Source: an uncultured Bacteroidales bacterium (GTDB lineage Bacteria > Bacteroidota > Bacteroidia > Bacteroidales > Muribaculaceae). Taken from it: a stretch of DNA of 64,000 nucleotides. A model generated the notes under the pieces. The model made no database searches and was not told the origin of the DNA. It saw only the letters and a program-made list of their open reading frames with translations. Below are positions 23,084 through 55,156 of this stretch, in pieces. How positions within the stretch are numbered: the stretch's first letter is position 1; every line of letters starts with the position of its first letter. The position numbers were made by a program, and so were the translations under genes. The stretch is from the NCBI GenBank assembly GCA_902776435.1, contig CACYQB010000017.1, positions 1 to 64,000 on the forward strand, in the 5' to 3' direction.

Positions 23084-24592
23084 ATGATGAAAATACGACT
23101 GATCATATTTCTCATGGCCATTATGCTATCTAGCATTACGATGAGTGGTCAGGGCGGTTTGCGTCCGCGTGGGGATGTGAATTGCGATTGGGAAGTGACC
23201 ATCGCCGATGTCAATATATTGCTGGACTCGGTGATGAGTGGAGCAAAGTATCACAGCTATTACACCTATGCCCTTGACGTCAACGGCGACAGGGAAATCA
23301 CCATCGCCGACATCAACCTGCTCATCGATGCCATATTGAGTGGCGAACTGCCTCCCATGCCTTCTTACTCGGGCACCCTACCCGTCCTCTTTATCAACAC
23401 CGAGGGTCATCGCGACATAGTCAGCAAGGAGGACTACCTTCATGCCGACTGGTGGCTCGACAACATGGGCAATGACGAGTATGAGTCCATCGGATCTCCC
23501 GAATACCCTTTAGGTATGAAAATCAGAGGACGCGGCAATTATACCTGGACAAACCACGAAAAAAAGCCTTTCAGGCTCAAGTTAGATTATCCTCTCTCCA
23601 TACTGGGAATGCCGTCAAGCCATCATTGGGTGTTACTCAGCGGAGCTGATTACTGGATTGGGCAAATCAATGACATGCTGCCATTTGAAATCGGGCGCCA
23701 GATGGGTATGGCTTGGAATCCGCGCCAAGTGCCTATCGAGGTAGTACTTAACGGGCAATACATCGGATTGTATCACTTGACTGAGAAGATTCACGTCGAT
23801 GTAAACCGCGTAAATATTGTCAAGCAGAAAGACAATGAAACCGATTCCACCCTAGTAACGGGCGGTTGGCTTATGGAAATTGACAACTATTATGAACCTA
23901 ATCAGATTGCGTTTACCGAGGGCAACGGTTGGCCTTTCTGGGCCACACCTCATTCTCCCGAAGAATTGAGCAGCGTGCAACGGGCCTATATAACAGATTT
24001 CCTCATGCAAGCCGACAGCGCTATCTATTGTGAGGACAAAAGCAATATGGAGTGGGAGCATTACGTTGACATTGACTCGCTGGCCGTCTTCTATATCATT
24101 CAGGAAATCATGGACAATGCTGAGGGCTTTCATGGCAGTTGCTATTTCCACAAACACCGAGGGGATAGCACTAAACTGATATTTGGCCCGCTTTGGGACT
24201 TCGGCAGTGCCTTTTCACGCTACACGGACACCTATGAATTCAATCATTTCATCTATGACAATGCCTCCTCAAACCTCCATTTGCGCTGGATTGCCGAAAT
24301 TGCCAAGTACCCAAGATTCCAACTATGCGTGCGTCAACATTGGCAGCGATTCTATCATGACATATATCCCCAATTAGACCAATTACTGGATGAGTATGGT
24401 GACAGAATCGAGGCAGCCTGCGACTGTGACTACAAACGCTGGCCCAAATCGGAATGCAACAATATCAAGAACAGAATCAATTTTACCCGCAATAACTGTC
24501 TGAACAAAAAAATCGCTTGGCTGCAATCCCAGTGGGGCTGGCCCGTTCCTGTTGACCCTGAAGGTCCACAGAGCAAGGATATCAATGAATAA
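23084..24592 (+). CDS. Dockerin-CotH kinase family secreted protein
   Basis: A 502-aa protein with a signal peptide (IIFLMAIMLSSITMSGQ), then an N-terminal type I dockerin at about 28-85. Its two Ca-binding loops are DVNCDWEVTIADVN and DVNGDREITIADIN, each followed by a helix xLLDxxxSG. A CotH domain fills the rest (about 97-490): VLFINTEGHRDIV, MKIRGRGNYTW, KKPFRLKL, YIGLYHLTEKIHVDVNRVNI and GPLWDFGSAFSR. CotH proteins are atypical secreted kinases in spore coats and are also recurrent dockerin-linked modules in cellulosomes. It stands at the end of the rightward polysaccharide run, facing a leftward glycosyltransferase 26 bp away. No T9SS sorting domain is visible, so surface attachment would rely on the dockerin. 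Confidence 0.85.
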   Translation: MMKIRLIIFLMAIMLSSITMSGQGGLRPRGDVNCDWEVTIADVNILLDSVMSGAKYHSYYTYALDVNGDREITIADINLLIDAILSGELPPMPSYSGTLPVLFINTEGHRDIVSKEDYLHADWWLDNMGNDEYESIGSPEYPLGMKIRGRGNYTWTNHEKKPFRLKLDYPLSILGMPSSHHWVLLSGADYWIGQINDMLPFEIGRQMGMAWNPRQVPIEVVLNGQYIGLYHLTEKIHVDVNRVNIVKQKDNETDSTLVTGGWLMEIDNYYEPNQIAFTEGNGWPFWATPHSPEELSSVQRAYITDFLMQADSAIYCEDKSNMEWEHYVDIDSLAVFYIIQEIMDNAEGFHGSCYFHKHRGDSTKLIFGPLWDFGSAFSRYTDTYEFNHFIYDNASSNLHLRWIAEIAKYPRFQLCVRQHWQRFYHDIYPQLDQLLDEYGDRIEAACDCDYKRWPKSECNNIKNRINFTRNNCLNKKIAWLQSQWGWPVPVDPEGPQSKDINE

Positions 24593-24618
24593 AAACCAAA
24601 GGGGGAAGTCACAACGCC

Positions 24619-25692: not shown

Positions 25693-25693
25693 G

Positions 25694-25781
25694 AGTTTTT
25701 AGTTGAGAGTTGAGAGTTTTAAGTTGTAAGTTTTAAGTAATAATACTAACGCCTAATGCCTAAAACCTAATACCTAAAGCT
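25694..25781. repeat. Short degenerate intergenic repeats
   Basis: A run of GAGTTTT/GTTGAGA-type words followed by GCCTAATGCCTAAAACCTAATACCTAAAG-like heptamers (consensus CCTAAWR; TTTAGG on the other strand). The same TTTAGGC heptamer recurs at 28086-28120. Confidence 0.6.
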
Positions 25782-26789: not shown

Positions 26790-26846
26790 CGCTATCGTCA
26801 ATAAGCTTTTACACTTATTTAACTATTATAGTCGCAAAATATTGTG

Positions 26847-26854
26847 CAAAGTTA
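26847..26854 (-). promoter_or_regulatory. -7 box for the radical SAM-GT4 unit
   Basis: TAACTTTG about 58 bp upstream of the radical SAM start codon; the -33 TTTG is poorly conserved or too far away (23 bp). Confidence 0.5.
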
Positions 26855-26876
26855 ATAAAAAAACATAAATAGGATA

Positions 26877-28082: not shown

Positions 28083-28085
28083 ACG

Positions 28086-28120: not shown

Positions 28121-28126
28121 GGAGCG

Positions 28127-29524: not shown

Positions 29525-30850
29525 ATGAAGACTAAACCTGATCTGAAATTCAACCAACTGTGGAACATCAGCTTTGGTTTCTTTGGGGTGCAGATTGCCT
29601 ATGCACTGCAGAGCGCAAACATCAGCCGCATCTTTGCGACCCTGGGCGCCGACCCCCACAACCTGAGTTATTTCTGGATTCTGCCGCCGTTGATGGGAAT
29701 GGTAGTGCAACCGTTAGTGGGCTACTTCAGCGATAAGACGTGGCTGGGTCGTTGGGGCCGCCGCATCCCTTACCTGCTGATTGGCGCCGCAGCCGCTGTC
29801 ATCGTGATGTGCCTGCTGCCCAATGCGGGTTCGTTTGGCCTGACCATCGCCGGCGCGATGATTTTCGGCTTGATTGCCCTGATGTTCCTTGACACGAGTA
29901 TCAACATGGCCATGCAGCCCTTCAAGATGATGGTGGGTGACATGGTCAACGAGAAACAGAAAGCCAAGGCCTACTCTATCCAGTCGTTCCTGTGCAACGC
30001 AGGTTCGTTGGTGGGCTACATCTTCCCGTTCCTGTTTACAGCCATCGGTATTGCCAATGTGGCTCCCGAGGGTGTTGTGCCCGACAGCGTGAAGTGGTCC
30101 TTCTATGTGGGTGCCGCAATTCTCATCCTGTGTGTCATCTACACGATTAGCCATGTGAAGGAATACACCCCTGCTGAAATGGCTGAATTTAACGCTGCAG
30201 CCAATGCCGAGGGGCAGGGTGAACAGGCTGCAACCGAAATGAGCCCGGCTCAGAAGAAGCACGCTTACAAGGTATTCTTCGAGGTGGGCCTGGTACAGTT
30301 CTTCTGCTGGGCCGCATTCATGTACATGTGGACCTATACCAACGGCACCATTGCCGACACCGTTTGGAACACCACCGACACTGCCAGCGAAGGTTATCAG
30401 ACCGCTGGTAACTGGGTAGGCATCCTGTTTGCCGTGCAGGCTATCGGCAGCGTGCTGTGGGCAGTGGTATTGCCTCAGTTCAAGAACATCAAGGTGGCCT
30501 ATGCACTGAGTCTTGTCATCGGCGGCATCGGCTTTGCCATGGTTCCCTACATTCACAACCAATACATGCTGTTTGTGCCCTACTTCCTCATCGGCTTCGC
30601 ATGGGCTGCTATGCTCGCTATGCCGTTCACGATGGTGACCAACGCCTTTGAGGGCAGCAGTCGCATGGGTACCGCACTGGGTCTGTTCAACTGCACCATC
30701 TGCATCCCGCAGATTGTTGCCGCCGCCCTGGGTGGCGTGCTGCTGGCTGCCATGGGTAGCGTACAGGGCAACATGCTCTTGCTGGCCGGCATCCTGCTCG
30801 TTGTTGGAGCCGTGTGTGTATTCATCATCGAGGACAAGAAACATAAATAA
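29525..30850 (+). CDS. MFS sugar transporter, SLC45/maltose type
   Basis: A 441-aa inner-membrane transporter with 12 predicted helices. The N-terminus NQLWNISFGFFGVQIAYALQSANISRIF and the loop GYFSDKTWLGRWGRRIPYLLIGA (RWGRRxP motif) match the sucrose/maltose-type MFS group found beside starch genes in Bacteroidetes. It probably brings maltose or maltodextrin into the cytoplasm after SusC/D uptake. It is first in a rightward operon with malQ (35 bp) and pulA, and lies downstream of a LacI-type operator. Confidence 0.88.
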   Translation: MKTKPDLKFNQLWNISFGFFGVQIAYALQSANISRIFATLGADPHNLSYFWILPPLMGMVVQPLVGYFSDKTWLGRWGRRIPYLLIGAAAAVIVMCLLPNAGSFGLTIAGAMIFGLIALMFLDTSINMAMQPFKMMVGDMVNEKQKAKAYSIQSFLCNAGSLVGYIFPFLFTAIGIANVAPEGVVPDSVKWSFYVGAAILILCVIYTISHVKEYTPAEMAEFNAAANAEGQGEQAATEMSPAQKKHAYKVFFEVGLVQFFCWAAFMYMWTYTNGTIADTVWNTTDTASEGYQTAGNWVGILFAVQAIGSVLWAVVLPQFKNIKVAYALSLVIGGIGFAMVPYIHNQYMLFVPYFLIGFAWAAMLAMPFTMVTNAFEGSSRMGTALGLFNCTICIPQIVAAALGGVLLAAMGSVQGNMLLLAGILLVVGAVCVFIIEDKKHK

Positions 30851-30885
30851 CCGACTAACGTCTAAAATCTTAAAACACCACTAAT

Positions 30886-33566: not shown

Positions 33567-33567
<1 letters not shown>
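30886..33567 (+). CDS. malQ: 4-alpha-glucanotransferase with tandem CBM20 (GH77)
   Basis: An 893-aa cytosolic amylomaltase that transfers alpha-1,4-glucan segments between maltodextrins and releases glucose. Two N-terminal starch-binding CBM20 domains (about 1-105 and 125-235; the second has GVVGNEPTLGDWNESKAL) precede the GH77 domain. Motifs: SDSYPYNSISIYALHP, nucleophile D533 in AYRIDHVLGFFR, acid/base E724 in CAEDLGMVPDC, D776 in STHDMPTMRQWW. The double-CBM20 form is the DPE2-like type common in Bacteroides. No signal peptide. The stop codon overlaps the pulA start by one base (TAATG). Confidence 0.95.
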
Positions 33568-35492
<1,925 letters not shown>

Positions 35493-35588: not shown

Positions 35589-36248
35589 TCAATTACTCAA
35601 CAGCAAGTCAATTAAGGCTGTAACGTCAGCAATAGTCACATTTCCATCATCGTTCAGGTCGGCATTCTCAGTGTGAAACGAGGATTGGCAACCAGCCAAC
35701 AAGTAGTCGATGAGATAGGTCACATCCTTAATACTCACGATTCCATCACCATTTACATCACCCCTTAACAGTTGTGGAAGTAATTGCACGTCACAACTCT
35801 CCCCTTGCAGAATGAATTCCACGCCATCCACAGTCGTACATATTGAATTTTTCAACCTAATCGTAGCAGGTCCAACAAAATCATCATCAGCAGTAAGGTT
35901 GATGGCCACAAGTGCGCCTGTGGTGCCAGAATAAGGTTTAACGCCAATAGAAAATGATACCATTCTCACACTGCTATCAGGTCTAAGTTTACTGATAATC
36001 GAGTGGTCATTAGCATTCCGCTGACCAAGGTCTAACAAGTACTCACCATCGTCTTGAACTACACTGAGACCCTGCGGCAAAACCAAATCCGTTTGGAATG
36101 CCGTGAACAGCTCATCATTATCCAGAATTATCGCTACCTGCATGGTCTCGCCAGGGCAGATTACGAAATCCGGTGTGTATAATCGGTTAATAGCAGCACC
36201 ACTCAATGCTGTCGCAGCAACCATCAATAATGCCAAAACCTTCTTCAT
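35589..36248 (-). CDS. Small secreted cohesin-like/dockerin protein
   Basis: A 219-aa protein with signal peptide MKKVLALLMVAATALSGAA. Residues about 24-150 form a cohesin-like beta-sandwich (CPGETMQVAIILDN, FTAFQTDLVLPQGL, YSGTTGALVAINL). Residues 155-219 are a type I dockerin with loops DVNGDGIVSIKDVTYLIDYLL and DLNDDGNVTIADVTALIDLLL, ending right at the C-terminus. GGAGG sits about 9 nt before the ATG at 36248, which decides against the ATG at 36263. It follows the BspA-like gene by 25 bp in one operon. Close relative of the protein at 45347. No sorting domain. Confidence 0.85.
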   Translation of the reverse strand: MKKVLALLMVAATALSGAAINRLYTPDFVICPGETMQVAIILDNDELFTAFQTDLVLPQGLSVVQDDGEYLLDLGQRNANDHSIISKLRPDSSVRMVSFSIGVKPYSGTTGALVAINLTADDDFVGPATIRLKNSICTTVDGVEFILQGESCDVQLLPQLLRGDVNGDGIVSIKDVTYLIDYLLAGCQSSFHTENADLNDDGNVTIADVTALIDLLLSN

Positions 36249-36273
36249 AGTTTTATCCTCCATTATTCAATTA

Positions 36274-37743
36274 TCAATCTTGCCGTTTTGCCGCTGGCAA
36301 TGACAATCCATTCACCCTTACCTTATTATTCTCAATAGTGACTTCGCTTGCATTATCACTGATTGTAGCCTTATCGCCTATTCGTTCTTTAATCATATTA
36401 AGAGTGGGTTCCATCGGCTCATCATAATTCTGATCGAGAACTAAGTTAGCAATCTTTACCACATCGGTAATGGTAATCTTGCCATCACCATTCATATCAG
36501 CTGCCTCAAGATTAAACGGATCTGGATTTTGGAATAAGATATACTTTGCTGCCACCACAACATCGGTAACAGTTACATCTCCACTATTATTCGCATCACC
36601 TTTGATGAAAGGCGAAACAGTCACATTACAGAAGACATCAGGCGAAAGGACTTCATCCTCATCAAGAGTTGTTAAGCGCGTATTCTTTAATACGATTGGA
36701 TATACGCCATCACCGTCTTCTGGCACTTTTACTGTAATATAAAAGAGTTCTCCATCATTTTCCTTGAATGTTTTCATAGTGGATGAGTAACTCATAACCC
36801 GCACGGCACCATCGGGCGCATCATTTGCCATTATCAGATGGTCACGACCCTTGCGATCAGAAAGTGACACTTGATACTCACCATTTTTCTTGACCAATTC
36901 AAAACCCTCAACAAGGTAGATATCAGTCTGAAACGCCGTTATCTCATTCTCATTTTGCATCGATACAGGAACAATAATTGTATCCCCATGCATGGTGGAA
37001 ACATCGTCCAATGAAAAGAAATTTGGCTTAAAATCAGTAATAATTTTAAAATTCTTCCAAACATTAGCTGATTGATATGCCTCAATTGAATTTGCTGGGA
37101 CGTAAAGTGTCGTGTTCGCATAGGAACTAAAGTATGTATTACTACTATTCAAACTTGGAGGTGTTTCAGCCAAGCATGTGATGTATGCAAGGGGGCAACC
37201 GTAGAATGCTTTAGTACCTATATTAGTTACAGAATTACCAATAAAAACATTTGTCATTTTCGTGCATCCCTCAAATGCACCCAGTCCTATTTCAACCACC
37301 GAATTTGGAATATAAATGCTTGACAATTTCTTACAATAATAGAATGCTTGTGTATTAATGATAGTTACAGTGTTTGGGATAACAGCATGTGCCAAGTTAG
37401 TACAGTTTGCGAATGCGTTTGGCCCTATTGACGTAATTGTTTTTGGAATTGATATGCTTGTTAAATTCGAACAATTAAAAAACGCACACGAATTGATTTC
37501 TGTTACAGTATAAACCAAACCATTATATGTGACTCTCTCTGGAATGGCGACATGGCCACTATAATTACTATAGCAAGTCCCAGAGCTACTATTATAGGAC
37601 ATATAAGTAACAGATGCTTCATTGCCGTTAATGTTGTAATAGATACCATCTACTAACATGTCGTAGGCGAGAGCGGTGTTGACGGTGCAGACGAGGGCAA
37701 GAATCAGCAGGATGGTACGTAAGGTTAAGTTTAGTGTTTTCAT
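36274..37743 (-). CDS. BspA-like LRR protein with cohesin-like and dockerin modules; damaged sorting domain
   Basis: A 489-aa protein with a signal peptide (LNLTLRTILLILALVCTVNTALA). LRR_5/BspA repeats span about 75-220 (SIPKTITSIGPNAFANCTNL type), a cohesin-like domain about 240-370 (GDTIIVPVSMQNENEITAFQTD), and a dockerin about 381-440 (loops DANNSGDVTVTD and DMNGDGKITITD). The protein ends LPAAKRQD, but the other frame from about 36313 to 36263 encodes GEWIVIASGKTARLIIE and a stop. That tail aligns with the T9SS sorting-domain end of the 1187-aa protein at 41613. So the C-terminal sorting domain looks deleted and frameshifted. The alternative stop overlaps an ATG (TAATG), as an intact operon would have. 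Confidence 0.85.
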   Translation of the reverse strand: MKTLNLTLRTILLILALVCTVNTALAYDMLVDGIYYNINGNEASVTYMSYNSSSGTCYSNYSGHVAIPERVTYNGLVYTVTEINSCAFFNCSNLTSISIPKTITSIGPNAFANCTNLAHAVIPNTVTIINTQAFYYCKKLSSIYIPNSVVEIGLGAFEGCTKMTNVFIGNSVTNIGTKAFYGCPLAYITCLAETPPSLNSSNTYFSSYANTTLYVPANSIEAYQSANVWKNFKIITDFKPNFFSLDDVSTMHGDTIIVPVSMQNENEITAFQTDIYLVEGFELVKKNGEYQVSLSDRKGRDHLIMANDAPDGAVRVMSYSSTMKTFKENDGELFYITVKVPEDGDGVYPIVLKNTRLTTLDEDEVLSPDVFCNVTVSPFIKGDANNSGDVTVTDVVVAAKYILFQNPDPFNLEAADMNGDGKITITDVVKIANLVLDQNYDEPMEPTLNMIKERIGDKATISDNASEVTIENNKVRVNGLSLPAAKRQD

Positions 37744-37792
37744 TTTTAATTTGTCTCCTATTGCCGGTGCAGTTCTCACGAGCGGTTTTAAG

Positions 37793-41612: not shown

Positions 41613-44600
41613 ATGAAGAATTATTACCTACCCGTCGTACTATTGCTCCTGGCACTGATGATGCCAGTCACAGCAAGCGCCTACGACTTTGAAGTCGATG
41701 GCATCTATTACAACAAGAACGGGACTGAAGCGACCGTGACCTACAAAGAATTAAAGTACCTTTCTTATAGAGACACGGTCATCATTCCCTCAACAGTCAC
41801 CTATCTAGACACAACCTATACGGTTACGGCAATTGGCAACAACGCCTTTGAGAATTGCTCTACCCTGCGTAAAGTGACTATCCCTAATACGGTCAAAGAC
41901 ATTCAAGAAAGGGCTTTCATGGGTTGTTCCCTGCTTTCCAGTGTCTTTTTACCATCGTCTATCAGAACAATCGGACCTCGTGCATTCCAAAATTGCACCC
42001 GCATGGATAACCCTCATTTAACTAATGTCACATCCATCGGTAATATGGCGTTTTACAATTCCAACATACGGGGAGTCTATGTACCAAAGACCCTCACTTC
42101 GATAGGAAACGAGGCGTTCGGTCATTGTGAAATCTATTGGATTGAAGTCTATGAAGGGAATCCGGTATATGATTCAAGAGAAGATTGCAATGCCATCATT
42201 GAGACAGCGACTAACACGATTGTTGTAGGATGCGAAAGCACCACCGTTCCCAATACGGTCACAACAATCGGTGAACGTTCATTCTCAGGCTGTGAAGGCT
42301 TGACCGAATTAGTCCTTCCCAATTCAGTGACTACCATCGGCAGTTGGGCTTTCTATGAATGCTCCAATTTTAGGACAATCAACTTGCCCAATTCGTTGAC
42401 AACCATCAAGAATTCTGCCTTCTGTTATTGCCGTTCACTTGATAACATTGTCATCCCATTCTCTGTCACCGAGTTGGGTGTAGGCGCGTTCTTTGGCTGC
42501 AGCGCGTTAAACAAAATCACTATCCCCTATTCCATTACCAAGATTGGGGACGCCGTTTTTCAGGACTGTTCTGGGCTCACCAGTGTCACCATTCCTAATT
42601 CTGTAACATATATTGATTCACGAGCTTTTCAGAACTGTATCAGCCTCACCCATATCGAAATTCCCAACACAGTAACTTATTTGGGAGAATATGCTTTCAG
42701 TGGGTGTTACAAGCTGGAAGAGGTCGTTGTGCCCAATTCTGTCACTGCTATCGGGGAATGTGTTTTCAGTCAATGCAGATCATTGAAGCACATCACCTTG
42801 CCCGAACACATCACAGTGATCCCGCGCTGGACATTCAATAGCTGCTACTCTCTTGCCAGCATTAATCTACATGAGGGTTTAACAACCATCGGTTATGGCG
42901 CTTTCAGCCAATGTGAATCATTAACCAATCTGACCATACCCAGCACAGTGAATTCTATTGACGGCTGGGCTTTCAGTCAGTGCTCCAGCTTGAAATCCTT
43001 TATTTATAATGCCGTTAATTGCCCCACCATCGGACAAAGCGCCATGTACCATACCATGGACGAGTTCATCATCGGTGATGGTGTAGAGTGTATTCCGGCA
43101 GGCTTGTACTCGTTTGACCTCGGGGACAGGATTTTGCATTTACCCAATAGTGTGAAGGTGATTCAAGCCGGGGCCCTGAAAGGCAAAGCAGCAGCCGTTG
43201 TTATCGGGAACAACATCGAGGAAATCGGTGTAGGCGCATTTTCCAAGGACATCCCCGACGCCTATGCCACCAGCCCCACTCCCCTTCCCTGTTCGGCTGG
43301 CGCATTTATCAACCCGCAAGTGCTTTATGTGCCCGTCGGCAGCAGGAACCTATACCTTGAAGCCGAAGGCTGGAATGAATTTCCTACCATTATCGAGCAA
43401 GACTACATCCGTGCAACCGATCTCAATCTGGATGCAAGCCAGATCACCTTACAGAAAGGGACCACGCACATACTCCATGCCACCACACAACCCGCTGATG
43501 CAATCACACAGACCTTTTCCTGGATAAGCCTGGACGAGAGTATTGCCACCGTCGATGACTTGGGCCTTGTCACTGCAATAGGTCCTGGAGAAACGGATAT
43601 CCTCGTTTATTTTGACAACCTCAAGGCTGTCTGCCATGTGGTCGTACCCGCTACGCTTGGCGAAAGCATCTCCTTCAACCATGACCACCTGTCGATGACC
43701 ATCGGTGAAACCGCAAGCCTCATCGCTACGATTCTGCCCGAGAGCACAGACAATCAGCGCGTCGAGTGGATTATTCCCCAGAATGAGATTCTCATGACGC
43801 AAGAGACCAACGACAACACCCTCGACATTGCCGCATTGCACAAGGGACGCGTCGTTATTACCGCACGCACGACAGACAGCAGCAATCTGAGCGCATCCTG
43901 CGAAGTCAGAGTGCTGGATGCCGGAGGAGAAGATGCGTTCTACATACATGACATGTCGGCATTGCACGGCGATACCATTATCGTACCCGTTGCCATGTCA
44001 TCGACCGAACCCATCTTTGCCTTCCAAACCGACATTTATCTGCCCAATGGCTTTACCATCGTGACTGACGAGGATGACGAGTATGTCATCACTCCTTCAG
44101 GACGTCTGACCAGCGACCATGTCCTCATGACCGACAATATGGGTGATGGCGCTGTGCGTGTGATTTGTTACTCTTCCAACGAGAGGGTTATCGGCGGCGA
44201 CAATGGTGAAGACCTGTTCTATATCACGGTAGCCGTTCCTGATAACGCTGTCGGGAACTATGACCTCAACTTGAGAAATTCTTTATTGACGACCAACCTG
44301 TTCCAGGAATTGAGCATTCCTGATGTGACTGCCACCATCCAAGTCAAGGCCTTCCTGCCTGGTGATGCCAACGATAGCCGAGCCGTCTCGGTATCCGACA
44401 TCGTCACCACAGCCCAATACATGCTTGACAGGAATCCCAGTCCGTTCATCTTTGAGGCCGCCGACATGAACGGCGATGGCAATATAACCGTGACGGACAT
44501 CATGATGATTGCCCACATCATCCTCTATCCCAATATGGATGCACCCAGACATGCGCCTGCTCTCATGGACAATAGCGACTGCATGAGTGGTGAAGCCCTC

Positions 44601-45176
44601 ACGCTCAAGCCGGGTGATGCCCGCACGGTGAGCATTGCACTCGACAACGAGATGACCTACTGTGCATTCCAGCTCGACCTGCAACTGCCCGACGGGCTGA
44701 CGGCAAGCAATTTTGCATTGACCGACCGCGCTGGCAACCACGCCTTCGATATGGACAACATCGGTAACGGCAAGATTCGCGTCCTGTGCTACTCCATCCA
44801 GTTCGAGCCCATCAGTGGCAATAGCGGGGCACTGCTGACCTTTGATGTAACGGCCAATAATGACGTCACGGGAGACATTACCGTGGACAATATCGAACTC
44901 GTCACCACCACTTGCCAGACCGCCCTGCTGGATGGATTTGCCATCGGTGTGAACAAGTCCAGTGCCGTCAACGAGATAACTGCCAACGTGAAGATCTATA
45001 GCGACGGGCACAATATCATCATCGAGACACCCGTAGCAACGACGGCAACAGTCAGCGACATTGCCGGACACACAAGCAGCATCGAACTGACTGCCGGCCG
45101 CAACACTATCCCCACCAACGGCGGATTCCACTTCGTTACCGTCAATGGCCAGTCCGCGAAACTGTTGACAAAATAA
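41613..45176 (+). CDS. Scaffold-like surface protein: BspA LRR, Ig-like, cohesin-like, dockerin, cohesin-like, T9SS sorting domain
   Basis: An 1187-aa secreted protein. Signal peptide (YYLPVVLLLLALMMPVTASA), BspA/LRR_5 repeats of about 23 residues from about 55 to 530 (unit like VTIPNSVTYIDSRAFQNC), two Ig-like/BIG2 domains (about 600-770), cohesin-like domain 1 (about 775-910, GDTIIVPVAMSSTEPIFAFQTD), dockerin (about 916-975; loops DANDSRAVSVSD and DMNGDGNITVTD), cohesin-like domain 2 (about 990-1110, GDARTVSIALDNEMTYCAFQLD), and a T9SS type A-like sorting domain (about 1118-1187) ending GFHFVTVNGQSAKLLTK. It would be exported by the T9SS and anchored at the surface, able to offer two cohesin-like sites. 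The first dockerin loop has Ser/Arg where Asp/Gly are usual, so Ca binding there may be weak. Confidence 0.87.
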   Translation: MKNYYLPVVLLLLALMMPVTASAYDFEVDGIYYNKNGTEATVTYKELKYLSYRDTVIIPSTVTYLDTTYTVTAIGNNAFENCSTLRKVTIPNTVKDIQERAFMGCSLLSSVFLPSSIRTIGPRAFQNCTRMDNPHLTNVTSIGNMAFYNSNIRGVYVPKTLTSIGNEAFGHCEIYWIEVYEGNPVYDSREDCNAIIETATNTIVVGCESTTVPNTVTTIGERSFSGCEGLTELVLPNSVTTIGSWAFYECSNFRTINLPNSLTTIKNSAFCYCRSLDNIVIPFSVTELGVGAFFGCSALNKITIPYSITKIGDAVFQDCSGLTSVTIPNSVTYIDSRAFQNCISLTHIEIPNTVTYLGEYAFSGCYKLEEVVVPNSVTAIGECVFSQCRSLKHITLPEHITVIPRWTFNSCYSLASINLHEGLTTIGYGAFSQCESLTNLTIPSTVNSIDGWAFSQCSSLKSFIYNAVNCPTIGQSAMYHTMDEFIIGDGVECIPAGLYSFDLGDRILHLPNSVKVIQAGALKGKAAAVVIGNNIEEIGVGAFSKDIPDAYATSPTPLPCSAGAFINPQVLYVPVGSRNLYLEAEGWNEFPTIIEQDYIRATDLNLDASQITLQKGTTHILHATTQPADAITQTFSWISLDESIATVDDLGLVTAIGPGETDILVYFDNLKAVCHVVVPATLGESISFNHDHLSMTIGETASLIATILPESTDNQRVEWIIPQNEILMTQETNDNTLDIAALHKGRVVITARTTDSSNLSASCEVRVLDAGGEDAFYIHDMSALHGDTIIVPVAMSSTEPIFAFQTDIYLPNGFTIVTDEDDEYVITPSGRLTSDHVLMTDNMGDGAVRVICYSSNERVIGGDNGEDLFYITVAVPDNAVGNYDLNLRNSLLTTNLFQELSIPDVTATIQVKAFLPGDANDSRAVSVSDIVTTAQYMLDRNPSPFIFEAADMNGDGNITVTDIMMIAHIILYPNMDAPRHAPALMDNSDCMSGEALTLKPGDARTVSIALDNEMTYCAFQLDLQLPDGLTASNFALTDRAGNHAFDMDNIGNGKIRVLCYSIQFEPISGNSGALLTFDVTANNDVTGDITVDNIELVTTTCQTALLDGFAIGVNKSSAVNEITANVKIYSDGHNIIIETPVATTATVSDIAGHTSSIELTAGRNTIPTNGGFHFVTVNGQSAKLLTK

Positions 45177-45200: not shown

Positions 45201-45311
45201 TAATGTGAGTTCGATGAAGATATTTACGATGATTCAAAGCGGCAATTACTCCCCTCTCACCCTAGAAAGGGATTTGAGTGCCAGCACATTGTTTTCATCG
45301 AACTCACATTA
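45201..45311. repeat. 111-bp inverted-repeat element (MITE- or inverton-like)
   Basis: Perfect 18-bp inverted repeats TAATGTGAGTTCGATGAA at 45201-45218 and 45294-45311 enclose 75 bp that also contain a small CCCT/AGGG fold. The ends read TA...TA, compatible with a TA target duplication. No promoter box is visible inside. Confidence 0.7.
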
Positions 45312-45346: not shown

Positions 45347-45997
45347 ATGAAAAGATTATTGTTATTGAGCATGATGTTTAGGGTAGCACTGTGGGGTGCA
45401 GCTACCGACCGTTTTTATATAGAAGATTTCTCCATTTCCCCTGGTGAGACGCGCACGGTGAGTATCCTGCTGGACAACGAGGCGGAATATACCGCCTTCC
45501 AGTGTGACGTCTGCCTGCCCGAGGGATTGACAGCGAGCAATTTCGCGTTGACCAACCGCAAAGCCTCCAATCACACCTTCTCGACAAGTGTACTCGGTGA
45601 AGGGAGTGCCTACAGGCTCCTCTCCTACTCACTCAACCTCAAGCCCTACAGCGGCAACAGCGGTGCACTCGTGACCTTTGACATCACAGCGGGAGAAGAT
45701 TTCGTTGAAAGCGCAACGATTAGATTGCGTAACGTGGAGTTCACCACAACGGCAGGTGCCGAAATCCCTTTTAGCAATGAGCAGTGCACGGTGACGTATG
45801 TTGCTGCAAGCAAAAAAGGAGATGTGAACAATGACGGCAAAGTCACCATCAGTGATGTGACCGCGCTCATCGACTATCTGCTGGGTGGTGATGAGAGCCA
45901 GATTAACCTGGGCAATGCGGATGTAAACGATAGCCAGGGCATCACCATCGCCGACGTCACCGCACTCATTGACTTGCTGCTCTCCAACGGCGCATAA
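45347..45997 (+). CDS. Small secreted cohesin-like/dockerin protein
   Basis: A 216-aa paralogue of the protein at 35589. Signal peptide-like start MKRLLLLSMMFRVALWGAA, cohesin-like domain about 24-150 (SPGETRTVSILLDN, YTAFQCDVCLPEGL, YSGNSGALVTFDI), and a C-terminal dockerin about 158-214 with loops DVNNDGKVTISD and DVNDSQGITIAD. The second loop has an extra residue (Ser-Gln) that may disturb one Ca site. Its cohesin-like domain is most like the second cohesin-like domain of the large protein just upstream, as if derived by duplication. It is separated from that gene by the 111-bp inverted-repeat element. Confidence 0.83.
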   Translation: MKRLLLLSMMFRVALWGAATDRFYIEDFSISPGETRTVSILLDNEAEYTAFQCDVCLPEGLTASNFALTNRKASNHTFSTSVLGEGSAYRLLSYSLNLKPYSGNSGALVTFDITAGEDFVESATIRLRNVEFTTTAGAEIPFSNEQCTVTYVAASKKGDVNNDGKVTISDVTALIDYLLGGDESQINLGNADVNDSQGITIADVTALIDLLLSNGA

Positions 45998-47097: not shown

Positions 47098-48957
47098 ATG
47101 AAAAGATTATTATTGTTGATGGCTGTGGCATTGGGAATGCTGACTGGCCATGCAGCGGTCAAGGTGGACCGCATCGAGCCCACTAACTGGTATGTGGGCA
47201 TGAAGAATCCCAGCGTTCAGCTCATGGTTTATGGCGAAGGCATCCGCGATGCCGAGGTGACCATCGACTATGCGGGCGTGGCGCTCGACAGCCTGGTAAG
47301 GCTGGATTCACCGAATTATCTGCTGATTTATCTGAATACCCGCGACGCCCAGCCTGGCACGATGGAAATGACCTTCAAGCAGGGGCGTAGCAAGAAGAAA
47401 GTGAAATACCAACTGCTCGCCCGCGAGATGAGCGGCGACAAGCGCAAGGGCTTCACCAATGCCGATGTGCTCTACATGCTGATGCCTGACCGCTTTGCCG
47501 ACGGCAATCCCGCCAACAACCAGATTGCAGGCATGGAGGCCTACAAGAACGACAGGACGCAGCCTAGCCTGCGCCATGGCGGTGATATCGAGGGCATCAG
47601 GCAGCATCTGGATTACTTCACCCAATTGGGCGTAACCGCCTTGTGGTTCACCCCCGTACTGGAAAACAATTCACCCGACGGCCACAATCACTCGACTTAC
47701 CACGGCTATGCCACGACCAACTACTACCGTGTGGATCCGCGCTTCGGCACCAACGAAGAGTACCGTCGCCTGTGTGACGAGGCCCACAGCCGTGGCCTCA
47801 AGGTGGTGATGGACATGATCTTCAACCATTGCGGCGATTACCACCCCTGGCTCAAGGATATGCCCAGCCATGACTGGTTCAACCAGCCCGACTACAAGAA
47901 CAACTACCTGCAGACGAGCTACAAGCTCACCCCCGTCATGGACCCCTATGCCAGCGAAATCGATCTCAAGGAGACCGTCGAGGGCTGGTTTGTGCGCTCC
48001 ATGCCCGACTTGAACCACCACAACGTGCATGTGATGAACTACCTGATCCAGAACAGCATCTGGTGGATTGAAACCGTTGGCATCGACGGCATCAGGATGG
48101 ACACCTACCCCTATGCCTACGCTGACGCGATGGCCCGATGGATGAAACGCCTCGACACTGAGTACCCCAACTTCAATACCGTGGGCGAGACCTGGGTTGA
48201 GAATCCGGCCTATACAGCAGCCTGGCAGAAAGGCAACAAGATGGGCAAGCCCGAGAGCTACCTCAAGACGGTGATGGACTTCTCCTTCTACGAGAAAGTT
48301 GACAGCGCGCGACACGAGGAGACCGATGGCTGGTGGCGTGGCTACAACCGCGTGTATAACAGCCTGTGCCTGGACTACCTCTATCCCAAGCCCGAAAACG
48401 TGATGGCCTTTATCGAGAATCATGATACCGACCGCTACCTGCACGACGGCCAAGACGTTGATGCGCTGAAACAGGCGTTGGCCCTCCTGCTCACCATCAA
48501 GCGCATCCCGCAATTGTACTACGGCACCGAAGTGCTCATGAACGGCACCAAACGAATCACCGACGGCAACGTGCGCAAGGACTTCCCCGGCGGTTTCCCT
48601 GGTGATGCACAGAACGCCTTTACCGCCGAGGGCCGCACCCCTGCCCAGAACGACATGTTCAACTGGCTGAGTGCCTTGCTGCATTGGCGCCAGGGCAACG
48701 ATGTCATCATCAAGGGCAAGATGACCCAGTTCATCCCCAAGGACGGCATCTATGTCGTTGCCCGCAGCTATCAGGGTCGCCATGCCGTGACGATCATCAA
48801 TGGGACAACCTCTCAGCGCCAGATGCAACTTGACCGCTATCAAGAAGTCTTCGGCAATGCCACCATGGCCCGCGACGTTCCCACCGGCAAGACCATCAAT
48901 CTCACTGATGGCGCTATCACCCTGCCCGCCCGCGGCACCCTCGTGCTCGAGTTCTAA
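47098..48957 (+). CDS. susA: SusA-like neopullulanase/cyclomaltodextrinase (GH13)
   Basis: A 619-aa secreted, probably periplasmic GH13 enzyme that degrades maltooligosaccharides, pullulan or cyclodextrins. Signal peptide MKRLLLLMAVALGMLTGHA, an N-terminal cyclomaltodextrinase-type beta domain (about 20-115, VDRIEPTNWYVGMKNPSVQLMV), the barrel, and a C-terminal beta domain. Catalytic D335 (GIRMDTYPY), E364 (VGETWVEN), D443 (FIENHDTDR). This domain set is that of B. thetaiotaomicron SusA. It is separated from susC-F by about 7 kb and sits behind a GT2 gene rather than the LacI operator. Confidence 0.92.
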   Translation: MKRLLLLMAVALGMLTGHAAVKVDRIEPTNWYVGMKNPSVQLMVYGEGIRDAEVTIDYAGVALDSLVRLDSPNYLLIYLNTRDAQPGTMEMTFKQGRSKKKVKYQLLAREMSGDKRKGFTNADVLYMLMPDRFADGNPANNQIAGMEAYKNDRTQPSLRHGGDIEGIRQHLDYFTQLGVTALWFTPVLENNSPDGHNHSTYHGYATTNYYRVDPRFGTNEEYRRLCDEAHSRGLKVVMDMIFNHCGDYHPWLKDMPSHDWFNQPDYKNNYLQTSYKLTPVMDPYASEIDLKETVEGWFVRSMPDLNHHNVHVMNYLIQNSIWWIETVGIDGIRMDTYPYAYADAMARWMKRLDTEYPNFNTVGETWVENPAYTAAWQKGNKMGKPESYLKTVMDFSFYEKVDSARHEETDGWWRGYNRVYNSLCLDYLYPKPENVMAFIENHDTDRYLHDGQDVDALKQALALLLTIKRIPQLYYGTEVLMNGTKRITDGNVRKDFPGGFPGDAQNAFTAEGRTPAQNDMFNWLSALLHWRQGNDVIIKGKMTQFIPKDGIYVVARSYQGRHAVTIINGTTSQRQMQLDRYQEVFGNATMARDVPTGKTINLTDGAITLPARGTLVLEF

Positions 48958-49780: not shown

Positions 49781-49789
49781 CGCCCTGTT

Positions 49790-50608: not shown

Positions 50609-51744
50609 CGCTAAAACTGAACGACAGCATCAAGCGAAACCCTAAGATCTCGGTTTACATCCTGGGACTCATCGTGGCTATCATCGCCACAGCGATTGAA
50701 ACCATCAGGTTGCGGTATGCCAACTACCTTGTATATACCGACTCGACACTGGATTTCTGGACTGGAGTCAATCCTTATACGATGGACTTTGTAGAGGCAC
50801 ACGGACGTTATTTCCTATATACACCGGTCTTCTCGGTGCTCTACTGGCCCATTGCCATGCTGCCCAAGTGGTTGGGACCGTTTGTCTGGAATCTAGGCAA
50901 CTACACCTTGTTTGCCCTGTCGATATTCACCCTTCCCAAGCGTTATGACGCCTACAAGGTGAAGATTTTCCTTTTTCTGCTGCTGGTGCTCGAGCAGAGC
51001 ATTTTCCCGTTCCAGTATAACATTGTAGTAGCCTATATCTTCCTGTTCTCGTTCAGTCTGCTGGAACGTGGCAAGGGGTTCTGGGCCGTGTTGCTGATCA
51101 TGATATCGGCAACGACCAAGGTGTATGGCATCGTGGAGTTACTGATCCTGTTCTGCTATCCTAAGCCTTTCCGTCGGCTCGCTCTTGCCGCACTCATCGG
51201 CATCCTGCTGCTCATCTCACCAGCCATCAAGGTGGGCATTGACGGTCTCATCCCCTGCTACATGAACTGGTGGAACATGCTGTCACAGCACCAGAGCAGC
51301 GACACCTTTGCGTCACTGCTTTATGCCTATCCGTTAAGATACATCCTGGACCATTACCGCATTGTGCAACTTGTGACTGTAGGCCTGATTATCGTCTTGT
51401 TCTTTGTGAAACACAATCGGTGGCACGAGTTTGAGTTCCGTGCCACAACGCTCGGCGTCCTCATGGGTTGGATCATTCTGTTTGGCGACTCATCTGAGGT
51501 TCACACCTATCTCATTGCCCTGTCGGGTTACATGCTGTGGTATTACCTGCAGAAGCATCACACCGTACTGGACAAAGTATTGTTCTGGGCACTGATCGTA
51601 TTTTTCGGGTGCATACCCACCGATGTACTGGTGCCGTCCAGTGTTCACAACTTCCTGAACGGCACCCTATACATTAATGTCTATCTCTACACCATCGTGT
51701 GGTGCAAGATGGTCTGGTCGATGCTTACTGAACGAAATTCTTGA
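50605..51744 (+). CDS. GT87-like polyprenol-dependent glycosyltransferase
   Basis: A 379-aa membrane protein with about ten transmembrane helices. LDFWTGVNPYTMDFVEAHGRYFLYTPVFSVLYWP contains the early acidic loop motif and FLYTPxF signature of the DUF2029/GT87 family (mannosyl- or arabinosyl-type GT-C enzymes). Translationally coupled to the deacetylase. Its 3' end overlaps the convergent GH53 gene by 20 bp. Confidence 0.82.
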   Translation: MTLKLNDSIKRNPKISVYILGLIVAIIATAIETIRLRYANYLVYTDSTLDFWTGVNPYTMDFVEAHGRYFLYTPVFSVLYWPIAMLPKWLGPFVWNLGNYTLFALSIFTLPKRYDAYKVKIFLFLLLVLEQSIFPFQYNIVVAYIFLFSFSLLERGKGFWAVLLIMISATTKVYGIVELLILFCYPKPFRRLALAALIGILLLISPAIKVGIDGLIPCYMNWWNMLSQHQSSDTFASLLYAYPLRYILDHYRIVQLVTVGLIIVLFFVKHNRWHEFEFRATTLGVLMGWIILFGDSSEVHTYLIALSGYMLWYYLQKHHTVLDKVLFWALIVFFGCIPTDVLVPSSVHNFLNGTLYINVYLYTIVWCKMVWSMLTERNS

Positions 51745-53083
51745 GTTCGTAGAGGGCTGGTGTAGCCTTACCCGTCTCGTGGTCCCACAAACCGGCATTG
51801 TACCAGTTGTCGTTTACGTGTAAGATATTCCACAAACTTCCACCCAAGCCATACTCATTGGCCTCGGGGAACCACCAGAACAAGCCCTTGACCTGGCGAT
51901 AAGGCTTGATGCGGGCAACCAGGTCGGCGGTATACTTCCGCTGTCCCTCATAGGTCAACGGCCACGTTGACGAGTAGTCCATGTCGCCCACCTTGTAGTG
52001 GTAACTGTATCCCGTCTCGACAATCATGATGTCCTTGTCAGGATAATTGTTGGCCACGTTGTTTAGCGCATTGGATATCACTGACAAAGCCCCATGGAAA
52101 TAAGGATAGTAGCTCAAGCCGATGATGTCATAGTCCACCTGCTTGTCACGCATCTGGTTATAGAAGTTGAGCATGATACTCGTTTTGGCGACACGCTCGG
52201 TGTGCAGGATAATCTTGGCGCGGGGGCATTCCTCGCGGCAGGCGCGGCCAGCAGCCTTGAGCAGATTGGTGAAGCGTTCCCAGTTGGTTTCATCACCACT
52301 ATAGCATTTTAAGAGTTTATCAGCGGGAGTGCCCACGGGTCCCCAGCACATGCCATAACTGATTTCATTTCCCGTCTGGATATAGTCGGGCATAGCGCCA
52401 GCGGCCTTGAGAGCCCTCAGGCAGTCACGGGTGTACTCATAGATCTTTTGGGTTAAAGCCTCGTCATCCAGGCCAGCCCACTCGGCAGGGGTAAACTGCT
52501 TGACAGGATCGGCCCAACTGTCACTATAGTGGAAATCGAGCATAAACTTCATGCCAGCCGCCTTGATGCGTTGTCCCAGCACCTTAACGGTGTCCAGGTT
52601 CTGAATGACACCTTGGCCCTTATCCTCAGCCGAGGCATTGGCGGGATTGACAAACAGACGCACACGGGCAGCATTCCAGCCCTGCTCCTTGAGCCAAGGA
52701 ATCACATCAGGGATAATCTGGCCGTTGATGTCATAGTAATGGGCATTGGTGACATTGTATTGCAGTGCCTTCTTCTGATGGGCCTCATACTTGGTCAACA
52801 TGGAGATATCCCCACCCACGACTGGGCCGTTATACTCCTGTTCCCCACCGTTCAGGATGATATCGATGACGGCATTCACATCAGCGATGCCCACCTCACC
52901 ATCACCATCCACGTCACCGCTAATCTCAACATTACCCGAGAGAATCATATCGATGACCGCATTCACATCGCTGATGGTCACCTCGCCGTCAGCGTTCACG
53001 TCCCCTTTCAGAACAGCATTGGCGTTGAATGCTATCAACGCCAGTGCCATTGTCAGGAATATGGTTCTAATCCTATTGTTCAT
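51725..53083 (-). CDS. Dockerin-bearing arabinogalactan endo-beta-1,4-galactanase (GH53)
   Basis: A 452-aa secreted enzyme that cuts beta-1,4-galactan side chains of pectin. Signal peptide (IFLTMALALIAFNANA), an N-terminal type I dockerin at 28-78 (loops DVNADGEVTISD and DVDGDGEVGIAD), then the GH53 barrel (about 92-450). Acid/base E240 in QTGNEISYGM and nucleophile E356 in IVETGYSY are present; the barrel opens with GGDISMLTKYE. It follows the amylase by 12 bp in one leftward operon, and the amylase's C-terminal dockerin is a near copy of this N-terminal one. No T9SS sorting domain. Confidence 0.93.
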   Translation of the reverse strand: MNNRIRTIFLTMALALIAFNANAVLKGDVNADGEVTISDVNAVIDMILSGNVEISGDVDGDGEVGIADVNAVIDIILNGGEQEYNGPVVGGDISMLTKYEAHQKKALQYNVTNAHYYDINGQIIPDVIPWLKEQGWNAARVRLFVNPANASAEDKGQGVIQNLDTVKVLGQRIKAAGMKFMLDFHYSDSWADPVKQFTPAEWAGLDDEALTQKIYEYTRDCLRALKAAGAMPDYIQTGNEISYGMCWGPVGTPADKLLKCYSGDETNWERFTNLLKAAGRACREECPRAKIILHTERVAKTSIMLNFYNQMRDKQVDYDIIGLSYYPYFHGALSVISNALNNVANNYPDKDIMIVETGYSYHYKVGDMDYSSTWPLTYEGQRKYTADLVARIKPYRQVKGLFWWFPEANEYGLGGSLWNILHVNDNWYNAGLWDHETGKATPALYELKNFVQ

Positions 53084-53095
53084 TGGTTCCCTATC

Positions 53096-55156
53096 TTATT
53101 GATTCAAAATGATGTCGATCACGGCATTGACATCGGAGATTCCGACTTCGCCATCACCATCAACATCGCCAATGATATCGAGATCGCCCGACAAGATCAT
53201 GTCGATCAGGGCGTTGACGTCAGCGATATTGACCTCACCATCACCATTCACGTCACCGGTAACACCATCAAGATAAGGCAGGTACTGGTCGGTCACATCC
53301 TTCACTTGATACTTGTTAGTCTGAGTCGTTACCTCAAAGAAGGAAGTCTTGTTCACATAGGTCACATCCTCGGTCTGAACATTGCTCGGACCCTGGTTGA
53401 AGACGAAGTTCATGTAATAGTCCTTGCCAGTAATCTGATAGCTCCTGTAGTAGAACTTGACGCCATTGACAATCTTAGTGTCGGTGATAGCCTGACCGGG
53501 CCAGTTACCATTGAACTGCTGGTTATTGCTGTCCCAAGTGTAATAGTTGACCACTCTCCAGTTGTTGGGAGCAACGGTAGGATCCTTGAGGTAAACCGTG
53601 ATCTCGTAAGGCTCAAATACCGAGTTGTCGATCGTGTAATGACGGGTAATCACACCACTCACAGCGCCGCCAATCAGCAGGCCGACTTTCAGGGTGGTGG
53701 TCTTATTGATATTCACACTGGAACCATTAGCGACCTTAGTGCCGTTGCTGGCGGTGGGCTCGCTACCATCGAGGGTATAGACGAGTTGTGCGCCATCGGT
53801 CTGGCTCACGGCCGTGAGCGACACGTCGAAGCCGCCATCATACTCGCCACTGGGCTTGCTGGCCCATGCGGTCTCGGTAGTCTTGCTCAAAGCCAAGCGA
53901 TAGTTGGGGCCACTGGTCACAACCACAAAGGTGGAGGGAATGTTGTAGGCCGTGCTACCCATAGCGGCAAGCACAGTGCCACGGGTACCGACGGTGCGCT
54001 GCACATAGTAGTTAGAGCCAGCATTCATGTCCACATTATAGGTATTGCTCGTGTTGGTTACACCAGCCAATTGACGTACATAAATCATCTGCTTGATGCT
54101 CTCCTTGTAAGCAATCCAGTGTTTGAGGAAGACGCAGGGAGTGCCCGGCATGGCAAGCATGTAGGCATTACCGGCCTCGATGTTGTTACGGATGGGATCC
54201 TGCTGCTCATTGGCACTGCGGTACTCGGTATCGTGGTTCTCGATGAAGGTAACCGCATAGCGGCGGTAATTGTTCTCCTGGCAGAGTCCCTTGTTGCTTG
54301 AGGTGCCCAGATTGGTCCAACGGTTATTGTTGACCGCATCGCGAATGACATAGCGGAAGGGGAAGTCAAATGCCGCACTCTGGACAATGCCATTCACCTT
54401 AGTACCATCGATCCAGTTCTTGACAGCACCCTGATTGCCGTCCCAGTACTCACCCACCGAGAACTCGGGCTGAGCATAGGAATTGTAAATACCCGTGTAC
54501 TGGGAAGCATATCCCTTCACCATATCATAGCGGTAGCCAGCATAGCCCAGGTCATCGAGCAGCATCTTGATGTAAGCCTTGACCGTGTTCTGCACATTCT
54601 CGCTACGGTGATCCAGGTCACGCATGCCGCCCCAGTCTTCGCCAGTGTCGATGTTGTTACTGAGTGACTTGCCATTTTGGTTTGCCCAGTTCAAGGTAGC
54701 ACCGCCATCATCATCCTTACAGATGTCGGTGGGCAGCAGTTTATAGGTAACACCCTTATAGACCTCGGTGGGGAAGGTTACCCAGTCGTTGATCGTGGCA
54801 CGGTGGTTGATGACAACGTCGGCGATAGTGCCGATGCCCTTGTTCTTGAACGTGTTGATCATCGAGCGCAACTGAGACTCGGAACCGAACGAGCAATTAT
54901 AGTTGGTGAACCAGTACAGGTCATCATAGCCCATCGAGGTGCTATTGCTGCACTGAGCACTCTGGGGAATCCACACGAGCTTAAAGAACTCGGCCAATTC
55001 ATCGGCCTGAGCCTCCAGCTTGGGCCACCGGGAGTCGGTAAAGGAATTCCAATAGAAACCCTGCAACATCACGCCATTGTACTTTGAAGGCCAACCCTGC
55101 GCCATCATCAGTAACGGCAACATCAATACAAGTGCTGTAGTAAAAATCTTTTTCAT
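53096..55156 (-). CDS. Dockerin-bearing alpha-amylase with starch-binding domain (GH13)
   Basis: A 686-aa secreted amylase. Signal peptide MKKIFTTALVLMLPLLMMAQ, GH13 barrel about 22-420 with D211 (GYRYDMVKGY), E236 (VGEYWDG) and FIENHDTEYR. A chitobiase-C-terminal-like domain (about 455-535, LVYTLDGSEPTASNGTK) and a CBM26-type starch-binding module (about 545-625, NYYTWDSNNQQFNGNWPG) follow. The last 55 residues are a type I dockerin with loops DVNGDGEVNIAD and DVDGDGEVGISD. Start at the ATG just before the signal peptide. The promoter has a -7 TATATTTG and a LacI-type operator 56 bp further upstream. Probably handed to the surface by a cohesin partner, since no sorting domain is present. Confidence 0.94.
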   Translation of the reverse strand: MKKIFTTALVLMLPLLMMAQGWPSKYNGVMLQGFYWNSFTDSRWPKLEAQADELAEFFKLVWIPQSAQCSNSTSMGYDDLYWFTNYNCSFGSESQLRSMINTFKNKGIGTIADVVINHRATINDWVTFPTEVYKGVTYKLLPTDICKDDDGGATLNWANQNGKSLSNNIDTGEDWGGMRDLDHRSENVQNTVKAYIKMLLDDLGYAGYRYDMVKGYASQYTGIYNSYAQPEFSVGEYWDGNQGAVKNWIDGTKVNGIVQSAAFDFPFRYVIRDAVNNNRWTNLGTSSNKGLCQENNYRRYAVTFIENHDTEYRSANEQQDPIRNNIEAGNAYMLAMPGTPCVFLKHWIAYKESIKQMIYVRQLAGVTNTSNTYNVDMNAGSNYYVQRTVGTRGTVLAAMGSTAYNIPSTFVVVTSGPNYRLALSKTTETAWASKPSGEYDGGFDVSLTAVSQTDGAQLVYTLDGSEPTASNGTKVANGSSVNINKTTTLKVGLLIGGAVSGVITRHYTIDNSVFEPYEITVYLKDPTVAPNNWRVVNYYTWDSNNQQFNGNWPGQAITDTKIVNGVKFYYRSYQITGKDYYMNFVFNQGPSNVQTEDVTYVNKTSFFEVTTQTNKYQVKDVTDQYLPYLDGVTGDVNGDGEVNIADVNALIDMILSGDLDIIGDVDGDGEVGISDVNAVIDIILNQ

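Follow-up and report, generated by a model that had tools for sequence, protein, structure and literature searches.

The genome of an uncultured Bacteroidales bacterium of the Muribaculaceae probably encodes, across its whole length, a cellulosome-like surface complex whose members have exchanged the sorting tail of the type IX secretion system (T9SS) for a dockerin, with which they would dock on tail-bearing, cohesin-carrying anchor proteins. The stretch of DNA analysed here, hereafter the window, measures 64,000 nucleotides (GenBank assembly GCA_902776435.1, contig CACYQB010000017.1, positions 1 to 64,000 of the forward strand) and belongs to a 3.45-Mb genome that is 95% complete. An earlier note on the window had read seven of its genes, within 32 kb, as dockerin proteins, four of them with cohesin-like domains, and had interpreted the set as an amylosome-like system. 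Proteins of the window are named below by the first coordinate of their genes.

Dockerin repertoire of the genome

The seven genes are indeed dockerin genes: Dockerin_1 of Pfam (PF00404) was matched in all seven open reading frames (ORFs), above the curated cut-off in six, and the window amylase 53096 (17.5 bits, cut-off 22.9) bears two EF-like loops at its extreme C-terminus. The enzyme identities given in the earlier note likewise held, with CotH (23084), GH53 (51725) and GH13 (53096) confirmed by Pfam and the CBM26 module of the amylase marginal at 28.0 bits against a cut-off of 28.1. Beyond the window, a first look across the genome returned 281 dockerin candidates; all 150 that were scored matched PF00404, and the stretches fetched round these matches hold 160 distinct dockerin ORFs, 155 of them matched by Dockerin_1. 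This number is a lower bound, being drawn from the surroundings of the 150 scored matches, and it includes proteins cut at the ends of stretches and two fragments of fewer than 70 residues. Dockerins with two calcium-type loops were thus found on many secreted proteins of the genome. The dockerin lies within 8 residues of the C-terminus in 127 of the 160, right behind the signal peptide in 7 and internally in 26 (some of them cut), and a crude lipobox pattern flags 10.

Counted over the 25 families that Pfam matched most often in each set, the 160 proteins include 42 with LRR_5 (leucine-rich repeats, LRR, of the BspA type), 20 with Peptidase_C10, 14 with DUF285, 9 with CotH, 6 with Peptidase_S8 (subtilases) and 4 with Endonuclease_1, in addition to at least two GH53 proteins and four GH13 proteins besides the window amylase (five or six GH13 in total). 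Of the groups that could be recognised, LRR proteins and proteases come first in size, and no cellulases appear among the 25 commonest families listed per set. Because these two groups outnumber all other recognised ones, the name "amylosome" is too narrow, and we have dropped it. The earlier confinement of the system to 32 kb must be given up as well: seven dockerin genes in such a stretch, which was picked after the fact, are more than the expectation of 1.5 to 2.6 (Poisson 0.0009 to 0.018), but since dockerin proteins, at least 155 to 160 of them, are spread genome-wide, the window is no special cluster. Matches to the sulfatase-modifying-factor (FGE) domain occur in at least five of the 160, and one protein of this genome (L053:7297-8697) combines a cohesin and a dockerin with some 250 residues that resemble that domain by eye.

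Cohesin domains and their fold

The five cohesin-like domains noted earlier in four window proteins were all found again: 35589, 36274 and 45347 have a single one, and 41613 has two. The Pfam cohesin model (PF00963) matches only that of 36274 directly (26.4 bits, cut-off 24.1) and leaves the other window cohesins unmatched; genome-wide, it scores above cut-off in two places and below it in a third. A profile built from 17 cohesin domains of this genome detects 18 strong domains in 13 proteins and one weak partial domain. Earlier surveys are likely to have missed such cohesins because just two of about 18 here reach the Pfam cut-off.

The fold was tested on 45347, to which the other window cohesins are tied by profile. 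An AlphaFold model of this protein without its signal peptide (a 198-residue cohesin-dockerin region, 14 sequences) has a mean predicted local distance difference test score (pLDDT) of 90, and in a Foldseek search of the PDB all 50 matches listed, of 126 at E ≤0.001, are cohesins or entries that contain one (best E 6.2e-9). As modelled, the beta-sandwich of 45347 is a cohesin fold. Sequence searches of the PDB returned no significant cohesin match, and in one of them cohesins came up weakly, at E 0.35-0.96, together with other chance matches. Elsewhere in the genome, a secreted protein of 206 residues (L059:4444-5064), which lacks a dockerin and whose one cohesin is diverged, adjoins two dockerin proteins.

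Architecture of the scaffold genes

Scaffold genes form a conserved pair. At 18 of 19 loci, a cohesin gene of the anchor type has another cohesin gene behind it in the same orientation; in two of these 18 the anchor-type gene is cut or split, and at locus L167 the second gene is missing. The window itself holds two such pairs of anchor and scaffoldin: 41613 is paired with 45347, and 36274 with 35589. A single cohesin is present in the second gene of the window pairs, whereas G061, G085, G068 and one locus of G099 have two there, G062 has three, and four genus mates (G102, G099, G069 and G088) have six together with a C-terminal dockerin; the six-cohesin genes are adjoined by a gene for dockerin, cohesin and tail. 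These multi-cohesin cases come from 20 loci that had been selected for holding several cohesins and do not represent a random draw. PF00963 matches three of nine scaffold proteins scanned, namely the six-cohesin proteins of G102 (57.3 bits, E 2.6e-15) and G099 (52.8 bits) and a three-cohesin protein of the sister-genus genome G042 (47.3 bits), and it has no match in the other six, the six-cohesin protein of G088 included. Carbohydrate-binding modules (CBMs) were recognised neither in the window scaffolds, which carry LRR_5 and Big_2 instead, nor by Pfam in these nine proteins.

The modules fall into classes that follow their place in the pair. In a cohesin tree, the first anchor cohesins group together without exception (18 of 18, support 0.91); a second clade (0.995) takes in 15 of the 17 second anchor cohesins, and a weak third (0.53) 15 of the 16 adaptor cohesins. 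The dockerins of 148 cohesin-less proteins and 16 adaptors are alike in consensus, constituting an enzyme class, and those of 19 anchors have a consensus of their own. When dockerins are grouped by the helix pair of repeat 2, a class chosen after viewing the alignment, the scaffoldin dockerin agrees in variant with the enzyme dockerins sampled from its own genome for 11 of 14 genomes or loci (permutation 4e-5, ancestry uncorrected). The exceptions are L149, L154 and L155, the last with two dockerins that are nearly identical; the count leaves out G099, loci without a sampled enzyme dockerin, L162 (weak second-gene dockerin) and L161 (the anchor and adaptor of G112). Homogenisation within genomes could also produce such concordance.

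Dockerins and sorting tails at the C-terminus

The secretion machinery that a sorting tail would address is present, as the earlier note had supposed: the genome encodes SprA (2663 bits), and GldL, GldM and a GldK-like gene lie in the window, the last so named, provisionally, from its position and FGE domain. Outside the genus, relatives of the window amylase with complete C-termini lack a dockerin and have a tail-like end in 8 of 8 cases, and the same holds for 20 of 20 C10 peptidases, whereas within the genus a dockerin stands at the end of six of seven complete amylases. Truncated C-termini were excluded from these counts (three amylases and seven C10 peptidases outside the genus; L182, L187, L201 and L204 within it), and L188 and L189, with matches confined to the C-terminal part of the amylase, were likewise set aside. 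In the genome studied here, 20 C10 peptidases are among the dockerin proteins against 24 C10 matches in total, a figure that joins two thresholds. On these comparisons, the C-terminal slot of the amylases and C10 peptidases appears to hold a T9SS-type tail in sister genera and, for the most part, a dockerin in its place in this genus. A wholesale loss of T9SS tails from the genus was not seen with the tail model TIGR04183.

The tail-likeness of the 28 outside proteins was scored by eye and then used for building a tail profile; TIGR04183 matches in the same frames for at least five of them. At E ≤0.01 this profile matches 14 of 18 related cohesin-protein tails and 4 of 8 from the genome itself, and none of 127 dockerin enzymes in either stretch tested nor any of 300 shuffles. 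Applied as an independent profile to the 160 full proteins, it finds tails concentrated on those that bear cohesins, with matches in 3 of these 12 and in 1 of the 148 others (p 0.0013). A second tail profile matches 7 of the 12, a count that is partly circular because four of the proteins found had served to train it. The putative T9SS domain that the earlier note had placed on 41613, the largest cohesin protein, resembles T9SS-type tails in profile-profile comparison only (84.9%; controls 0.1 to 0.4%) and is modelled as a beta-rich domain; direct searches with TIGR04183 and the sister-genus tail profile did not recognise it. The two types of scaffold tail are unlike each other by profile comparison (0.5%), and NCBIfam found no sorting-tail model on 13 scaffold halves. 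The window enzymes, in keeping with the earlier reading, have no tail that could be found. In GH53, CotH and five other proteins read to their ends, the dockerin follows right behind the signal peptide and no tail is recognised; such N-terminal dockerins on tail-less proteins argue that the dockerin acts as a docking tag and not as a C-terminal export signal.

Distribution in the genus and family

Cohesins were found in 19 of 59 genomes of the family, specifically in 3 of 3 of the genus and 16 of 56 others, and first-look dockerin candidates number 281, 215 and 126 in the three genus genomes vs 3 to 44 (median 11) in the 56 others. The wider genus set comprises 62 genomes (61 searched together and G040 from the family search), and all 62 contain cohesins, with 1 to 19 matches each. 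Their first-look dockerin candidates have a median of 201 (range 51-322), and at E ≤1e-6 they have from 5 to at least 86 confirmed dockerins, at most 86 having been scored per genome. Cohesin and dockerin numbers are correlated within the genus (Spearman 0.57 over all 62 genomes; 0.45 when the set is restricted to the 32 of 90% completeness or more), and not significantly outside it (0.19).

The titles of 19 loci name buffalo, sheep or water-deer gut sites in four cases and RUG isolates in 13, with two uninformative. We take RUG to stand for rumen uncultured genomes. The habitat of the genus is probably the ruminant gut. The taxon labels of these loci read Muribaculaceae, Prevotellaceae, Prevotella, Bacteroidaceae or Bacteroidales, and the genus is perhaps Sodaliphilus of the Muribaculaceae.

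Proposed mechanism and competing explanations

In the mechanism that we propose, some 150 or more secreted proteins, LRR proteins and proteases foremost, would enter the system through their dockerins. Enzymes would reach the periplasm by way of the signal peptide, and their enzyme-class dockerin would dock, perhaps in a calcium-dependent manner, on a cohesin of a scaffoldin or an anchor. The scaffold would be built from a unit of two genes, the first encoding an anchor of the order LRR, cohesin, distinct dockerin, cohesin and tail, and the second a scaffoldin with one, two, three or six cohesins and usually an enzyme-class dockerin that may plug into the anchor or another scaffoldin. The anchor tail would carry the assembly to the surface through the T9SS; enzymes may either ride out docked or take another route and dock outside. 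With an amylase in the place of SusG that has a dockerin and, by eye, no lipobox, starch degradation appears to be wired into the docking system. A bolder version, which we advance tentatively and consider rather doubtful, holds that this is the first Gram-negative cellulosome-like system, a protease-rich "proteolysome" whose tail-less dockerin enzymes are exported through the T9SS as docked passengers of tail-bearing anchors.

Alternatively, each enzyme might dock singly on a tail-bearing cohesin protein, anchored without any complex, as proposed for Ruminococcus albus, which likely anchors through a single cohesin (PMC6118326; here and below, statements from the literature refer to the parts of each paper available). 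The proteins found in this genome have no more than two cohesins, and the one-cohesin protein beside two dockerin proteins would suit such an arrangement; we nonetheless regard it as unlikely, given the six-cohesin scaffoldins of four genus mates, the series of one, two, three and six cohesins in one gene slot and the dockerin that most multi-cohesin scaffoldins carry themselves. In adaptors, as in the first module of the anchors, only a few residues separate the cohesin from its dockerin, and some genomes have cohesins and few dockerins, as might be expected if the adjacent cohesin were a structural neighbour (like an X-module) or bound its own dockerin, leaving the enzyme dockerins to bind, for example, cohesins of other rumen species. 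Tandem cohesins without an adjoining dockerin, the second anchor cohesins, the genus-wide co-occurrence and the concordance of variants make this quite improbable. Dockerins that pair solely within their own chain may occur in the cohesin-dockerin proteins, and cannot be the full account because 148 dockerin proteins without a cohesin were found. Least probable, by a shade, is that the dockerin binds no cohesin and itself directs export or sorting in place of the T9SS tail: its C-terminal position in most dockerin proteins and its occupation of the tail's place in relatives would agree with this, whereas a C-terminal signal is unworkable for the seven tail-less proteins with N-terminal dockerins, and every genus genome contains cohesins.

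Several observations weigh against the docked, tail-anchored complex that we favour. The complex is predicted from sequence and models, its binding and localisation are putative, and the relative placement of cohesin and dockerin is uncertain in the models (predicted template modelling scores 0.69 and 0.61). With at most two cohesins per protein, about 18 cohesins face at least 155 to 160 dockerin proteins in this genome, and its dockerin-cohesin-tail proteins L057 and L058 have dockerins of the enzyme class, not the anchor class. As to tails, one genus amylase (L169) keeps its tail, one cohesin-less dockerin protein (L096) bears one, the tail of 41613 is unmatched by TIGR04183 or the sister-genus profile, 36274 has no recognised tail, and counts of TIGR04183 tails show no clear depletion in the genus (7, 15 and 11 vs 4 to 63 in 23 other genomes). 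Moreover, the co-occurrence and concordance statistics are uncorrected for shared ancestry, the 16 cohesin-holding family genomes outside the genus show no dockerin expansion, and in the sister-genus genome G001 (a metagenome-assembled genome, MAG, 85% complete) no cohesin was found beside 44 dockerin candidates.

Genes and other features of the window

Features of the window that bear on the docking system, with strand (aa, amino acids)
Feature	Position	Strand	Remark
CotH-kinase protein, dockerin right behind signal peptide, no sorting tail found	23084..24592	+	
Signal peptide - cohesin - dockerin, 224 aa; one-cohesin mini-scaffoldin/adaptor	35589..36263	-	10 nt downstream of 36274
LRR_5 - cohesin - dockerin (scaffold class), no recognised tail	36274..37779	-	
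LRR_5 - Big_2 - cohesin - dockerin (scaffold class) - cohesin - C-terminal tail; candidate anchoring scaffoldin	41613..45176	+	
C-terminal tail of 41613 (about aa 1121-1187), sub-threshold DUF6383	44973..45173	+	T9SS-tail-like by profile-profile comparison only
Signal peptide - cohesin - dockerin, 216 aa; gene two of anchor/scaffoldin pair	45347..45997	+	Cohesin fold by model
GH53, N-terminal dockerin after signal peptide, no sorting tail found	51725..53083	-	
GH13 amylase - CBM26 - C-terminal dockerin, SusG place beside susCDEF-like locus, no lipobox by eye	53096..55309	-	
Sus-like locus	55359..62889	-	SusC 59908-62889, SusD 58166-59872, SusE/SusF-like 56920-58140 and 55359-56840
T9SS core	5397..9538	-	GldM 5397-6989, GldL 7057-8031, FGE-domain GldK-like 8096-9538

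Between the anchor 41613 and the scaffoldin 45347 lies a perfect 17-bp inverted repeat (45202-45218, plus strand, and 45294-45310, minus strand), for which 0.03 are expected by chance per window; among the 268 fetched loci, exact copies occur only in three that overlap this very place. An invertible promoter or a small mobile element may be the explanation. At 2388-3293 the window encodes a tyrosine-type phage integrase family protein, of XerC/D type by domain, which could serve ordinary chromosome-dimer resolution or act on invertible sites. The window also contains a capsule or exopolysaccharide locus (12465-22987; polysaccharide synthase, Wzz/kinase, O-antigen ligase and glycosyltransferases) and starch or glycogen genes without dockerins (29525-35492 and 47098-48957), namely a transporter like those of the major facilitator superfamily (by eye), GH77 with CBM20, a pullulanase-like gene and a cyclomaltodextrinase.

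Relation to published work and known systems

Known cohesin-dockerin systems are described in PMC6118326 and PMC12484212. The co-presence of both domains in Bacteroidetes is, in the text available, already in print: 78 Bacteroidetes MAGs with both have been reported in a paper that urges their study on the ground that cellulosomes have been described in Firmicutes only (PMC12997984), and both domains are recorded for Prevotella (PMC9863278). Dockerin-rich Bacteroidetes bins and cohesins in certain Bacteroidetes (PMC6071333), dockerins in rumen Bacteroidetes (PMC7480376, PMC10872696), where their role in polysaccharide utilization loci is called undefined (PMC7480376), and 63 to 107 dockerins in Sodaliphilus MAGs (PMC10872696) have also been noted. 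For Muribaculaceae C941, dockerins and GH13 without cohesins led to the inference of a non-amylosomal route (PMC9863278). Among surveys, 15 multi-cohesin rumen MAGs, nine of them near Ruminococcus flavefaciens (PMC5830445), and 200 dockerins with 18 cohesins in 25 rumen MAGs (PMC9763041) are reported; cohesins are given for Firmicutes_A only in PMC9177762, Bacteroidetes are said to lack cohesins and dockerins in PMC5831590, and none is tied to cellulases in the capybara (PMC8810776). Dockerins go unmentioned in the available parts of PMC11177756, PMC11356848 and PMC7738495, which deal with C941, Muribaculaceae and Sodaliphilus. Our literature search, in the portions of text it covered, met no account of Bacteroidota scaffoldins, the C-terminal exchange or T9SS-linked docking; subscription papers on rumen cohesins may touch on distribution.

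The present genus, rich in dockerins and perhaps akin to or identical with those reported in these papers, is now seen to have cohesins, and specific pairs of cohesin and dockerin proteins can be named for testing. Were the proposal true, a rumen genus would build surface assemblies of proteases and other enzymes by a route thought to be Gram-positive, and the T9SS may export passengers.

The cellulosomes of Clostridia and Ruminococcus flavefaciens combine scaffoldins, duplicated-loop dockerins, separate enzyme and anchor classes and small cohesin-dockerin adaptors. These features, taken in part from the accessible sections of PMC12484212 and PMC7480376, recur here along with the cohesin fold, whereas the host is a Gram-negative bacterium with a T9SS, from a group in which cellulosomes are not known, its anchors are equipped with LRR, Big_2 and a tail and have no recognised CBM, the largest cargo groups are LRR proteins and proteases, and the cohesins are mostly missed by PF00963. 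The Limousia mucinolysome resembles the present system as a cellulosome-like assembly for a non-cellulosic substrate, in a host that is Gram-positive according to the available text (PMC12997984). With the Ruminococcus bromii amylosome the present system shares a dockerin-bearing GH13 with CBM26; GH13 is, however, a small minority of the dockerin proteins here, and the window amylase lies beside a susCDEF-like locus. That locus follows the Bacteroides Sus system in its SusC, SusD and SusE/F-like genes and the GH13 gene after them, and departs from it in the dockerin, and the lack of a lipobox by eye, of the enzyme in the SusG place. Finally, the T9SS-secreted enzymes of Bacteroidota have in common with the present proteins the amylase and C10 families, the tail-like ends on some anchors and the SprA and Gld genes, but on most of the genus amylases and C10 peptidases examined a dockerin sits where their tail would be.

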